Of a stretch of DNA of 64,000 nt, positions 44,856 through 50,457 are shown in pieces (position 1 is the stretch's first letter; the number at the start of each line of letters is the position of its first letter). The translations under genes were made by a program, and so were the position numbers. This DNA comes from Flavobacteriaceae bacterium (GTDB lineage: Bacteria; Bacteroidota; Bacteroidia; Flavobacteriales; Flavobacteriaceae): assembly GCA_029238515.1 (NCBI GenBank), contig JAQWFW010000034.1, positions 1-64,000 on the forward strand, given 5' to 3'. The notes beneath the pieces were generated by a model. The model saw only the letters and a list, made by a program, of their open reading frames with translations. It was not told the DNA's origin and did no database searches.

Positions 44856-45440
44856 TTAAAATTTTAAATTAATAGAAAGTCCCATTTGTGCGTTATAATT
44901 TGGGTTATTAAAGTCTATAAAAGGTTTTAGGGCTAGATTTTCATCTAAATTGTACTGAATCAGGTGTGCATCGACATTGGCCTCAATGATGTTTAAGACA
45001 TAAAGTCCTACAGTTACAAGCATAGACAGTTCTTTGTTTCGTTTCAATGTCCTTTGTGCTCTTATGAGCGCTTCATCAGATATAAAAGGAATGTCTTCAG
45101 GCCCATAAAACTCATCGTCTGTAAATCCAGCCAAACGTCGCTTGTAGGCGGTTCGGTAGCGCTTGTATAGATTATTGTTTTCAAAATAAAAGTAAAGCCC
45201 AGTACCAATTGCGCCATAAACAATAGGGATTTTCCAGTATTTTTTATTGTATGCCTGTCCAAGTCCAGGAAGGACTGCCGAAAAAAATGCTGCTTTTGCT
45301 GGGCGTAACGGATCCAGTTCAGCAGAGTTGTTTTTATTGTTTAAAGGAACAACCTCTTTATCGATTTTTTCATCATCTTGCGCTTGCATACCAAAAAATG
45401 TACACAAGAATAGCGCAGTGAGCCATAGTTTTTTAATCAC
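44856..45440 (-). CDS. DUF5683 family protein
   Basis: A 194-residue protein with a signal peptide (LTALFLCTFFGMQA) and a DUF5683 region: RPAKAAFFSAVLPGLGQAYNKKYWKIPIVYG is split by a membrane-like hydrophobic segment, then LYKRYRTAYKRR and a beta-rich end. The family is conserved in Bacteroidota envelopes next to parAB; no function is known to me. The start is GTG at 45440, overlapping the parB stop by eight bases. Confidence 0.85.
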   Translation of the reverse strand: MIKKLWLTALFLCTFFGMQAQDDEKIDKEVVPLNNKNNSAELDPLRPAKAAFFSAVLPGLGQAYNKKYWKIPIVYGAIGTGLYFYFENNNLYKRYRTAYKRRLAGFTDDEFYGPEDIPFISDEALIRAQRTLKRNKELSMLVTVGLYVLNIIEANVDAHLIQYNLDENLALKPFIDFNNPNYNAQMGLSINLKF

Positions 45441-46329
45441 TTTTCAAAAGTTTTAGGATGCGCTTGTAATCTTCTTTAGAATGAAAAGGAATGCTGATTG
45501 ATCCATTGTCTTTTTCCCCCATTTTGATGGTTATTTTTTGACCAAAAAAATCAGAAATCTCATCAACACTGTCTTTTACAAAAGTTGGAATTTGAGGTGT
45601 ATTTTTTTTAGACTTCTTCTTGGGGTCATTGTGGTTTTTTACCAACTCTTCAGTGGCTCTTACCGATAATTTTTTGGAGATAATTTGTTCATATATAGAT
45701 AATTGATCTGCTGATTGAGCCACATTTATGATGGCACGTCCATGCCCCATACTTATAAAACCATCGCGCATTCCTGTTTGAATAATTGGATCTAATTTTA
45801 GTAAGCGAAGGTAATTGGCAATTGTCGACCGTTTTTTACCAACGCGTTGACTCATCTGATCTTGTGTGAGCTTTACTTCGTCCATCAAGCGTTGGTAGCT
45901 CATGGCTATTTCGATAGGATCTAGGTCTTGTCGTTGAATATTTTCGACCAATGCCATTTCTAGTGCTTCTTGGTCATTTGCCAAACGGATGAACGCTGGA
46001 ATGGTGTCTCGTCCCAACATTTTGGATGCTCTAAAACGACGTTCGCCAGAAACAAGTTGGAATTTATTTTGTCCGATTTTTCGAACGGTAATGGGTTGAA
46101 TTACCCCCAATTCTTTTATAGAACCAGCAAGTTCTTTTAGCTGTTCTTCATTAAACTTAGATCTAGGTTGAAAAGGGTTAACTTCAATAGAATTCAATTC
46201 AATTTCTATGATGGAACCCATAGCGCGTTTGGCTGTTTTTTCGTCTACACCAGCAAGATCGTTTTTAGATTCATTCAGCAGAGCAGATAACCCACGCCCT
46301 AGAGCTTGTTTTTTAATCGCCTTTGCCAT
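45433..46329 (-). CDS. parB: Chromosome partitioning protein ParB
   Basis: A 298-residue CTP-dependent DNA clamp that binds parS sites. Visible parts are LGRGLSALL, the CTP-binding NPFQPR and GERRFRAS, ALVENIQRQDL, the helix-turn-helix (DQMSQRVGKKRSTIANYLRLL, split by a loop) and a C-terminal dimerisation domain. It overlaps the parA stop by 17 bases. I found no convincing parS palindrome in this window. Confidence 0.97.
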   Translation of the reverse strand: MAKAIKKQALGRGLSALLNESKNDLAGVDEKTAKRAMGSIIEIELNSIEVNPFQPRSKFNEEQLKELAGSIKELGVIQPITVRKIGQNKFQLVSGERRFRASKMLGRDTIPAFIRLANDQEALEMALVENIQRQDLDPIEIAMSYQRLMDEVKLTQDQMSQRVGKKRSTIANYLRLLKLDPIIQTGMRDGFISMGHGRAIINVAQSADQLSIYEQIISKKLSVRATEELVKNHNDPKKKSKKNTPQIPTFVKDSVDEISDFFGQKITIKMGEKDNGSISIPFHSKEDYKRILKLLKSD

Positions 46330-47095
46330 TAGCTAATTTTTTACTTATAATTTCCTTAGCCAAACTTAAGTAATTTGAAGCACCTTTACTATTAACATCG
46401 TAATTAATTATGCTTTCTCCAAAACTAGGGGCTTCACTCAGCCGAACATTTCGCTGAATGATGGTTTTGAACACCATATCATGAAAATGATTTTGAACTT
46501 CTTCAACAACTTGATTCGATAAACGAAGTCGAGAATCGTACATAGTGAGTAGTAATCCTTCGATGTCCAAATTTGGGTTATGAATTCTTTGTACACTCTT
46601 GATGGTATTGAGTAGTTTCCCGAGTCCTTCAAGAGCAAAATACTCACATTGAATGGGAATAATGATAGCATCCGCTGCAGTGAGTGCATTGAGGGTAAGA
46701 AGACCTAGGGATGGTGCGCAGTCGATAAGAATAAAATCATAGTTGTCTTTGATGGGTTCAAGCGCTGTTTGAAGCATATACTCTCTTTTTTCGACATGAA
46801 CCAATTCAATTTCTGAGGCGACCAAATCGATGTGAGCGGGAATGATGTCTACATTGGGAGCAGTAGTGTTTTGAATGGCTTCTTTTGCGGTGCAATTGTG
46901 TTCCAAAAGCTGATAGGTGCCTTTTTCTACCGATTCTACATCGATGCCAAGCCCCGAACTTGCATTGGCTTGTGGATCGGCATCAATTAGGAGCACTTTT
47001 TTTTCTAAAACACCCAAAGAAGCTGCTAAATTGACAGTCGTTGTGGTTTTACCAACACCGCCTTTTTGATTTGCAATAGCTATGATTTTCCCCAT
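46313..47095 (-). CDS. parA: Chromosome partitioning ATPase ParA (Soj)
   Basis: A 260-residue deviant Walker A ATPase with QKGGVGKTT at 10-18, Walker A' DADPQANASSG and QCEYFALEGL. It works with ParB to separate chromosome origins. The frame extends to a TTG at 47122, but that lies in the -7 box at 47120-47127; the ATG at 47095 gives the family-standard start GKIIAIANQ. A ParA paralogue with an extra domain lies 96 bases upstream. Confidence 0.97.
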   Translation of the reverse strand: MGKIIAIANQKGGVGKTTTTVNLAASLGVLEKKVLLIDADPQANASSGLGIDVESVEKGTYQLLEHNCTAKEAIQNTTAPNVDIIPAHIDLVASEIELVHVEKREYMLQTALEPIKDNYDFILIDCAPSLGLLTLNALTAADAIIIPIQCEYFALEGLGKLLNTIKSVQRIHNPNLDIEGLLLTMYDSRLRLSNQVVEEVQNHFHDMVFKTIIQRNVRLSEAPSFGESIINYDVNSKGASNYLSLAKEIISKKLANGKGD

Positions 47096-47119: not shown

Positions 47120-47127
47120 CAAAAATA
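47120..47127 (-). promoter_or_regulatory. -7 promoter box of parAB
   Basis: Minus-strand TATTTTTG, 24 bases before the parA ATG at 47095. It separates parAB transcription from the upstream ParA-like gene and rules out the longer parA frame. Confidence 0.55.
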
Positions 47128-47191
47128 CGATTAATTATGATGAATAAAAATCAATATTTATAAGGTTTTCAACAATTTTTCAGCTTAAATT

Positions 47192-48286
47192 TTATCCGCG
47201 TCTAAAGCGTCTCAGTTCAATATTTTGAACTTGATTATTTACAAATGAGAGGTATAGGAAATTCTTTCTAAATACCGTAGCTCTATCTGATACGCGATAC
47301 ATCCAAGTGTCTGAATGTATGTCGTTGTAGACCAACCCCAGACTTTTGATGACTTCTTCTTTTGTGAGTCCTTTCAATTTGTTGTAGTTTTTCTTTTTGA
47401 TGTCAAAGGGTTCAAAATGTTTCAGGTGATTTTTGCGTTTTGGTGTTTCAAGTGTTACTGATTCATTGTTGTCATCCATTATTTGATGGATGTTTTTACC
47501 AAGAATTTGAGTTGTTTTTTTCATAGCATTTCGGTTTGTTAATAGTTCACGGGATAAATTTAGGTAGTCATCAGATCCTTCACTTTCAATTTTATAATCG
47601 AAAATATTGGTTCCAAAACTCGGCGCTTCACTCAAGCTTACATTCCTTTTAATAATGGTATTGAATACCAAATCTTTAAAATATTGCTTCAGCTCTCCAA
47701 TGATATGTTGGTTGTGTTTTAAGCGTTTGTCATACATCGTAATCAAAAGCCCTTCGATGTCTAGTGTTTTATTAAAATTGGCCTTAATTTCTTTGATGGT
47801 TTTTAGAAGTTTATTCAATCCTTCCATTGCTAAATATTCACACTGGACAGGAATCAGAATACTATCTGCAGCAACAAATGAATTTATAGAAATATACCCT
47901 AAGGACGGTGAACAGTCAATGATTAAGTAATCGTAATTGGATTTGATTTCATCCAATGCATTTTTTAGTTTATAGACATTTTCACTTTTGTTGTTAATTT
48001 CCAAATCCGCTAGTTTTATGGAACTTGGAATTAAGTCAAGGTTAGGACTATGGGTTTGAATGATTTGTTCTGAAGTTTTACCATGCTCATCAAAAAGTTT
48101 TAAAAGAGATTTCGAACTTATAGTTTCAACACCTAATCCAGAACTTGCATTGGCCTGAGGATCGGCATCAACAAGCAGTACTTTTTGGTCCAATGTCCCT
48201 AAAGCTGAGGCCAAGTTTATTGCTGTGGTCGTTTTTCCTACGCCAACTTTTTGGTTTGCAATCGCTATGGTTTTTGTCTTAAGCAT
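47192..48286 (-). CDS. ParA-like ATPase with altered Walker A and an extra C-terminal domain
   Basis: A 364-residue protein. Residues 1-255 match ParA/Soj throughout (VDADPQANASSGLG, QCEYLAMEGL, LSEAPSFGTN), but the P-loop reads QKVGVGKTT (12-20), with valine in place of the first glycine. A basic linker (256-303) leads to a 60-residue C-terminal domain (304-364) beginning LKGLTKEEVIKSLGL and ending in strands such as FLYLSFVNNQVQNIEL, absent from ParA. The opening resembles BamE/SmpA-like small domains, but that is only an impression. It lies just upstream of parAB on the same strand and is probably a duplicate with a new job. Confidence 0.88.
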   Translation of the reverse strand: MLKTKTIAIANQKVGVGKTTTAINLASALGTLDQKVLLVDADPQANASSGLGVETISSKSLLKLFDEHGKTSEQIIQTHSPNLDLIPSSIKLADLEINNKSENVYKLKNALDEIKSNYDYLIIDCSPSLGYISINSFVAADSILIPVQCEYLAMEGLNKLLKTIKEIKANFNKTLDIEGLLITMYDKRLKHNQHIIGELKQYFKDLVFNTIIKRNVSLSEAPSFGTNIFDYKIESEGSDDYLNLSRELLTNRNAMKKTTQILGKNIHQIMDDNNESVTLETPKRKNHLKHFEPFDIKKKNYNKLKGLTKEEVIKSLGLVYNDIHSDTWMYRVSDRATVFRKNFLYLSFVNNQVQNIELRRFRRG

Positions 48287-48360: not shown

Positions 48361-50457
48361 TTAATTAATCAATATATCCAACACAGTGATTGCAGCGTCA
48401 CTTATTTTAGTACCAGGACCAAAAATAGCAACTGCACCTGCATCAAAAAGTATTTCATAATCCTGTTTCGGAATAACTCCACCCACAATGACCATTATGT
48501 CTTCTCGATTCAATTGCTTGAGACACTCTATTACTTTAGGAACCAATGTTTTATGTCCACCTGCTAGAGTAGAAATACCCAAAATATGTACATCGTTTTC
48601 TACGGCTTGTTTTGCTGCTTCTTCGGCTGTTTGAAACAAGGGGCCTATATCGACGTCAAAACCAAGATCGGCATATCCAGTAGCAACTACTTTTGCTCCA
48701 CGATCGTGCCCATCTTGTCCCATTTTGGAAATCATTATGCGCGGTCTTCGCCCTTCGATTTCGGCAAATTGATTGGCCAATTGCTTTGCTTTTTCAAAAG
48801 AGGCGTCGTTATTTAATTCTTTTTTATACACACCGGATATAGTTTTTATTTTGGCTTTGTAACGGCCATACACAGCTTCTAGTGCTGAACTGATTTCGCC
48901 AAGAGTTGCTCGCGCTCTAGCGGCTTCAACAGCTAAAGCTAATAAATTTTCGTTTTCATTTTGTGCCGCAATGGTAATTTTCTTTAAATACATATCTACT
49001 TCATCTTGATTTCGATGAGTTTTGATGTGTTTCAATCGTTCGATCTGTTGTTTCCGTACTCCATCATTGTCTACCTCCAAAATTTGCAATGGATCTTCGT
49101 TGTCAAGCACATATTTATTGACCCCTACAATAATGTCTTGCCCCGAGTCGATATGGGCTTGTTTTTTTGCTGCTGCTTCTTCAATTTTCAGCTTTGGAAG
49201 TCCTGCTTCAATGGCTTTGGTCATTCCGCCTTGTTGTTCAATTTCTTGAATAATGATCCAAGCGTCATTTATGATTTGATGTGTAAGTGTTTCGACATAA
49301 TAACTTCCTGCCCAAGGATCTACTGTTTTTGTAATTTGCGTTTCTTTTTGTAAATATAGTTGTGTATTTCTTGCAATTCGTGCAGAAAAATCTGTGGGCA
49401 GTGCAATGGCTTCGTCAAGTGCATTGGTATGCAAACTTTGTGTTCCGCCAAAGACCGCCGAAGTAGCTTCAATACATGTACGTGCGACATTATTGAAAGG
49501 GTCTTGTTCTGTTAAACTCCATCCACTTGTTTGGCAGTGGGTTCTTAGTGCCATTGATTTAGGATTTTTTGGATTAAATTGTTTTACAATTTTGGCCCAC
49601 AAGACTCTTGCTGCACGCATTTTTGCAATTTCCATGAAATGATTCATTCCAATACCCCAGAAAAAAGAAAGTCGAGGCGCAAATGTATCAATATCCAATC
49701 CAATTTCGAGCCCTTTTCTTAGGTATTCCAATCCATTGGCAAGTGTATACGCAAGTTCGGTTTCGGGTGGAGCACCAGCTTCTTGCATATGGTAGCCAGA
49801 AATACTAATGCTGTTGAATTTTGGCATGTTTTTGCTGGTATATTCAAATATTTCTCCAATAATATGCATTGATGGCGCAGGAGGGTAGATGTAGGTGTTA
49901 CGCACCATAAATTCTTTCAGAATATCATTTTGAATAGTACCACTAAGTTGGTTGAGATTTACGCCCTGCTCTTGTGCCGCTACAATATAAAAAGCCATGA
50001 TGGGCAAAACTGCTCCATTCATGGTCATGGAAACACTCATTTTGTCCAATGGAATTTTATCGAAGAGAATTTTCATATCTTCTACTGAATCGATGGCCAC
50101 CCCAGCTTTTCCAACATCACCAACAACTCGTTTGTGGTCACTGTCATATCCTCTATGGGTCGGTAAATCAAACGCAACAGATAATCCTTTTTGGCCTGCG
50201 GCCAAATTCTTTTTGTAAAATTCATTTGAGTCTTCAGCAGTAGAAAAACCAGCGTATTGACGAATCGTCCAAGGACGCCGTACATACATTGTAGTGTAGG
50301 GACCTCTTAGAAATGGTGGTTCACCCGCCCCAAAATTTAAATGCTCAACAGCGTTTAAATCTTCTTTGTTAAAAGATTTTGATGCAGTTTCCTTTCTGCT
50401 TTTGACACTGTTCATTGCCGCAATGAGTTTGATATGTTGCATGTCTTTTCTACTCAT
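48361..50457 (-). CDS. mutB: Methylmalonyl-CoA mutase, large (catalytic) subunit
   Basis: Interconverts succinyl-CoA and methylmalonyl-CoA using adenosylcobalamin. The 698-residue protein has the TIM-barrel domain ([32 protein letters not shown]) and the C-terminal B12-binding domain with DGHDRGAK, in which the histidine is the cobalt ligand, and [12 protein letters not shown]. Length and motifs are normal. Its start overlaps the end of the small-subunit gene by eight bases. Confidence 0.97.

Follow-up and report, generated by a model that had tools for sequence, protein, structure and literature searches.

A ParA paralogue of Flavobacteriaceae with a ParB-like motif and a BamE-like C-terminal domain: a possible fusion of a positioning ATPase with its own partner

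A ParA paralogue of 364 aa, ParA2, in which an ATPase domain is followed by a ParB-like motif and a BamE-like domain, was found to be encoded on the minus strand at positions 47192..48286 of the window, the whole 64,000-nt stretch of Flavobacteriaceae DNA that was analysed. The explanation favoured here, with a probability of roughly 45%, is that ParA2 is a positioning ATPase of the ParA/MinD family fused to its own partner, namely a ParA-binding peptide plus a docking domain, and insulated from ParB. That the Flavobacteriaceae hold a family of such one-polypeptide positioning systems, derived from chromosomal parA and insulated from ParB through a lost response site, is proposed slightly more tentatively. 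The open reading frame of parA2 is uninterrupted over 364 codons. The ParA/Soj-type part comprises residues 1-252 (47531..48286) and is followed by a linker of about 45 aa (residues 253-296, 47399..47530), predicted to be disordered on the basis of pLDDT, and by a C-terminal domain of about 68 aa (residues ~297-364, 47195..47398). All features described are on the minus strand. The canonical parA (46313..47095), encoding ParA1 of 260 aa with the motifs KGGVGKTT and NVRLSEAPS, starts 96 bp downstream of parA2. It is followed by parB (45433..46329), the product of which begins with the canonical ParA-binding motif, MAKAIKKQALGRGLSALL. Upstream of parA2 lies a methylmalonyl-CoA mutase gene pair, and the large subunit gene (48361..50457) is the direct neighbour, as conserved in four genera. 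The source genome is a 1.7 Mb MAG, in which two ParA proteins, ParA2 and ParA1, were detected at the threshold used. Despite the presence of parAB, no perfect or two-mismatch match to the parS-like sequence TGTTCCACGTGGAACA was observed within the 64,000-nt window.

Residues ~2-255 of ParA2 matched ParA (Pfam AAA_31, E 1.7e-58), ParA2 and ParA1 share 54% identity across 251 aa, and the model of ParA2 was aligned to Soj/ParA structures with Z values of 35-40 over about 250 residues (39.9 to 9a6n, 38.5 to M. xanthus ParA 8ray). The ParA match over about 255 residues described in the initial annotation is thereby borne out, and the N-terminal domain is a Soj-type dimerising ATPase. The deviant Walker A (residues 13-20, 48227..48250) and Walker A' (D.D) motifs were invariant in 15 ParA2 proteins, except for a G-to-V change at the second position in the window copy and one conservative T-to-S change. 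The Walker B region was kept within the genus. The altered P-loop had been proposed as a defining trait of the protein. The window sequence does read KVGVGKTT, with a GTT codon for V14, the equivalent of Soj G12, at 48245-48247, but the relatives have GGT, so that the change is a single G-to-T difference in one MAG. The normal glycine, in the form KGGVGK(T/S), was found in 14/14 other ParA2 proteins, five close genus-mates among them, and the P-loop change was rejected as a key feature of ParA2. All 100 tabulated ParA proteins also have the normal glycine, but these were gathered by the pattern KGGVGKT, and only the ParA2 count therefore tests V14 independently. By the criterion set in the initial annotation, retention of KGGVGKTT in orthologues, V14 counts as local variation or as an error of the assembly, and a single base does not tell strain variation from misassembly here. 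Soj G12V binds ATP and behaves as a monomer (PMC9564211). If real, V14 would by analogy equal this substitution and would further hold the ParA2 of the window strain as an ATP-bound monomer.

Two arginines are important for DNA binding in Soj, one of them R218 (PMC3778016). The first, R189, was kept in 14/15 ParA2 proteins. At the R218 position the window copy has S217 (47636..47638), the residue behind the difference between NVSLSEAPS and NVRLSEAPS that had correctly been pointed out earlier, and the position was occupied by Ser, Lys or Thr in 15/15 ParA2 proteins. In flavobacterial ParA1 it was Arg in 39/42 and Lys in 3/42. Serine at this position is also seen in some Desulfobacterales ParA proteins, and is therefore not diagnostic alone, nor by itself a sign of lost DNA binding. 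Loss of R218 may weaken the nucleoid binding of ParA2. In M. xanthus, an Arg/Lys of ParB contacts Tyr81 of ParA, surrounded by E82, D110 and E117, and the ParA variant Y81L retains ParB and DNA binding while ParB-stimulated hydrolysis is lost (PMC12462528). These ParB-response residues were mapped onto ParA2 through the 8ray chain, in M. xanthus numbering. Tyr81 was present in 42/42 flavobacterial ParA1 proteins and in 55/58 ParA proteins from other phyla, compared to 0/15 ParA2 proteins, all 15 of which have Leu, Val, Ile or Lys instead. Asp110 was kept in 41/42 flavobacterial ParA1 proteins and the position was non-acidic in 13/15 ParA2 proteins. A deletion of two residues was observed near E117 in ParA2, a region where the phmmer and MAFFT alignments disagree. 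Because Tyr81 is lost and Asp110 is mostly replaced by a non-acidic residue, ParA2 is unlikely to answer ParB in the usual way, and the loss of Tyr81 would insulate it from ParB.

Residues 253-294 of the linker had pLDDT values under 50. A single conserved block, L-G-K-x-[IL]-x-x-[IV]-[LIM], was found at residues 262-270 (47477..47503; L262-G-K-N-I-H-Q-I-M270 in the window copy), and the rest of the linker varies freely. LGKNIHQIM fits the ParB-type pattern L-x-K/R-x-L-x-x-L-I. Among eight representatives from five genera, the L, G and K were identical, the three aliphatic positions were 100% aliphatic and the flanks were little conserved. The conserved positions are those shown to be essential in M. 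xanthus ParB, where L11, R13, L15, L18 and I19 are required for ParA binding or stimulation (PMC12462528). The motif pattern was present in 11/15 ParA2 proteins, covering five genera; no motif was found in g131, and in g20 it was degraded. A comparison made post hoc, with the motif already seen, of LG[KR].[LI]..[LIVM][LIMFV] against 1,079 ORFs (338,000 residues) returned ParB N-termini, ParA2 linkers and about six others, a few matches labelled ParB by a loose rule being counted among these others; the background rate was about 0.001 per linker length. When a profile of ParB N-termini was used, the best match in the whole protein was the linker motif in most motif-carrying members. In most lineages a Met is found a few residues before LGK, as at the start codon of parB. 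By the pattern search, the motif is ParB-like and not merely basic in character. Together with the loss of Tyr81, it was absent from the initial annotation, and the two say more about mechanism than the P-loop change.

The C-terminal domain was assigned from an AF2 model, fold searches, a weak Pfam BamE match and conservation. The model was built from four sequences and its core had a pLDDT of about 76. The top three Foldseek matches were BamE (5wam, 5d0o), with a probability of 0.9-1.0 and E values of 0.05-0.13, and VIA gave Z values of 6.5 to 2kxx, 5.5 to the B. fragilis immunity protein BtiO and 4.7 to BLIP. Pfam BamE (PF04355) was the commonest weak family match, seen for 3/17 tails with a best E of 0.0022, and a stand-alone tail member scored 17.6 bits, below the gathering cut-off of 23.2. 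When the tail was searched by itself, no Pfam or NCBIfam family exceeded the cut-off. Searched against PDB sequences, the tail profile retrieved only a repeat protein through a chance stretch of 19 residues, and this candidate was rejected. The earlier proposal of a BamE/SmpA-like tail is accordingly supported by the predicted fold, but not proven. No signal peptide or lipobox was found in the domain, which is located at the C-terminus of a cytosolic ATPase, unlike the outer-membrane lipoprotein BamE. Its cytosolic location makes the docking of proteins the most plausible role for the tail. Stand-alone tail relatives of 70-100 aa (L142-L152, L157) were observed in another family of the order, and several of these adjoin a conserved gene of about 105 aa (xNYKKIYxDxIxxKYPxK...), for which NCBIfam gave no match. 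Weak matches to the tail profile were also obtained for three multi-pass membrane proteins (L118, L119, L153) with a tail-resembling C-terminal domain (LxxKTxxEVLxxLGxP...DxWxY...).

The tail profile matched in 21/397 genomes of the family. ParA2 fused to the tail was found in at least seven genera of Flavobacteriaceae (g1, g20, g59, g123, g127, g131 and g158), and this conservation, together with the predicted structure, confirms that the C-terminal domain is real. The gene order udk-ftsB-like-mutA-mutB-parA2-parA-parB-dapB-lepB was kept in g1, g20, g123 and g158, with one small ORF between mutA and mutB in g20. In g59, g127 and g131 parA2 is found elsewhere, and the genomes with parA2 away from parAB are G284, G328, G484 and G700. 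In g16 (G025, L131 4016-5079), a separate tail-type gene overlaps the beginning of a second ParA gene, which is divergent, an arrangement that looks like a split version of the fusion. An intact tail-only ORF of 79 aa was observed just upstream of parA in the genus-mate G005 (L096), which has neither parA2 nor mutAB at this locus. In G091 (L123 1501-1638), from another genus, a tail remnant with two stops and a weak match (E 0.004) lies directly upstream of parA and suggests a past loss of parA2. No other convincing ParA2 remnant was seen upstream of parA at 27 other loci of the family. ParA2 formed one group (support 93/79) beside flavobacterial ParA1 in the tree, and the split between them therefore looks older than the sampled genera, although the ParA2 branches are long. 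With the same caveat, the grouping of ParA2 outside ParA1 does not support a recent origin by local duplication from the parA next to it. With dS near saturation, dN/dS was about 0.05-0.15 for the whole of ParA2, 0.04-0.2 for the tail and 0.03-0.07 for ParA1, values by which ParA2 is under purifying selection.

A putative Bacteroidetes-type -7 promoter box, TATTTTTG (47120..47127), precedes parA by about 25 bp and was kept in 5/5 members of the main genus group (the window, L003, L004, L005 and L084). Its conservation supports a separate promoter for parA, in agreement with the initial annotation. The intergenic region between parA2 and parA holds a conserved element, AAATAATTGTATTTTT(G/A), at 47120-47170 of the window, which was also found in g123 and in one g20 genome (G029). 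In g20 and g158, similar elements precede parA2, as if the promoter had been duplicated along with the gene.

The protein had been suggested to position another cargo or to modulate ParAB, and both are live readings. Partner proteins of ParA/MinD ATPases contact the ATPase with a short peptide and bind cargo with the remainder (PMC10241942; PMC7993993). From the observed architecture, conservation, selection, motif and loss of the ParB-response residue, we infer an interaction of this kind, its direction and a cargo. The N-terminal Soj-type domain would serve as the dimerising ATPase, the linker peptide would dock on ParA2 itself, and the BamE-like domain would replace the DNA-binding part of ParB as a docking module for another protein and would bind cargo. 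If stimulation depends on Tyr81, which ParA2 lacks, the internal peptide may fail to stimulate the ATPase to which it is joined, and binding in cis may then inhibit ParA2 or not take place. The absence of the motif in g131 and its degradation in g20 count against the fusion, and in four genera the position of parA2 next to parAB could instead indicate a function in ParABS. The latter is the basis of the chief rival, judged less probable than the fusion and on balance unlikely, in which ParA2 acts in trans on the neighbouring ParABS. The LGK peptide would enter the ParB pocket of ParA1 or of ParA1:ParA2 heterodimers and there compete with ParB or stimulate hydrolysis by ParA1, and the BamE-like domain would bring a signal. 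ParA1 can respond to the Lys of the peptide because it keeps Tyr81 and Asp110, the former lost and the latter mostly lost in ParA2, and a linker motif that is ParB-like beyond its basic character fits such a role. However, parA2 also occurs away from parAB in four genomes, most genera are without ParA2, all catalytic residues are kept, which is more than a docking protein needs, and distinct ParA/MinD ATPases that share a cell are thought not to form heterodimers with one another (PMC10241942).

The Met preceding LGK could also mark a relic. ParA2 would then be an orphan ParA-like positioning ATPase descended from a parA copy that became fused long ago to the start of a parB copy, in which LGK is now a mere linker and the BamE-like domain alone gives the function. 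The persistence of the ATPase and tail in g20 and g131 after loss of the motif agrees with this, but no other block of the linker is conserved between genera, and the conservation falls at exactly the positions critical in ParB, which makes the relic improbable. Least probable is a decaying, functionless duplicate, of which V14, not seen in relatives, would be one sign. The patchy distribution, the stop-containing remnant in G091 and the tail-only ORF in G005 are as expected from decay; the intact parA2 ORFs in those genomes of the genus with the highest completeness, the low dN/dS and the invariant catalytic residues in all other members are not. In ParA/MinD systems, the ATPase is normally stimulated by a separate partner, which also holds the cargo. 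A natural fusion, if true, would demonstrate that ATPase and partner can share one chain. ParA2 would then be a compact system, with Tyr81 naturally missing, for asking how the ParB peptide works, and a tractable case in which to study how cross-talk is avoided when a duplicated parA lies next to parAB. No ParA fused to its partner was found in a literature search, which does not prove that none exists.

ParA2 shares the fold, Walker A', Walker B and R189 with Soj/ParA (B. subtilis Soj, M. xanthus ParA 8ray and H. pylori Soj 8jmj), and all members except the window copy share the deviant Walker A. It differs in lacking Soj R218, M. xanthus Tyr81 and mostly Asp110, and in the addition of the ParB-like motif and the C-terminal domain, with no second parB of its own nearby. 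Both DNA-binding arginines and the Tyr81/Asp110 response site characterize a canonical ParABS ParA, and ParA2 has neither the arginine pair nor the response site. The motif corresponds to the N-terminal motif of ParB/Spo0J (LGRGLxALL in flavobacterial ParB) in the L, the G, the K/R, the three aliphatics and the spacing, whereas the Gly after K/R is not kept and the motif is located in a linker after a ParA domain instead of forming the N-terminus of a CTPase clamp. The tail model, with short helices followed by a three-stranded sheet, resembles BamE (SmpA/OmlA), BtiO and BLIP, its top fold matches. Unlike BamE, the tail is cytosolic and below the Pfam cut-off, and the function of BamE is not transferable to it. 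In its combination of an ATPase, a short ATPase-binding peptide and a cargo-binding module, the proposed fusion is similar to PomZ-PomX and McdA-McdB. In those systems the partner peptide is normally N-terminal and on a separate protein, whereas ParA2 would have all three parts in one polypeptide.
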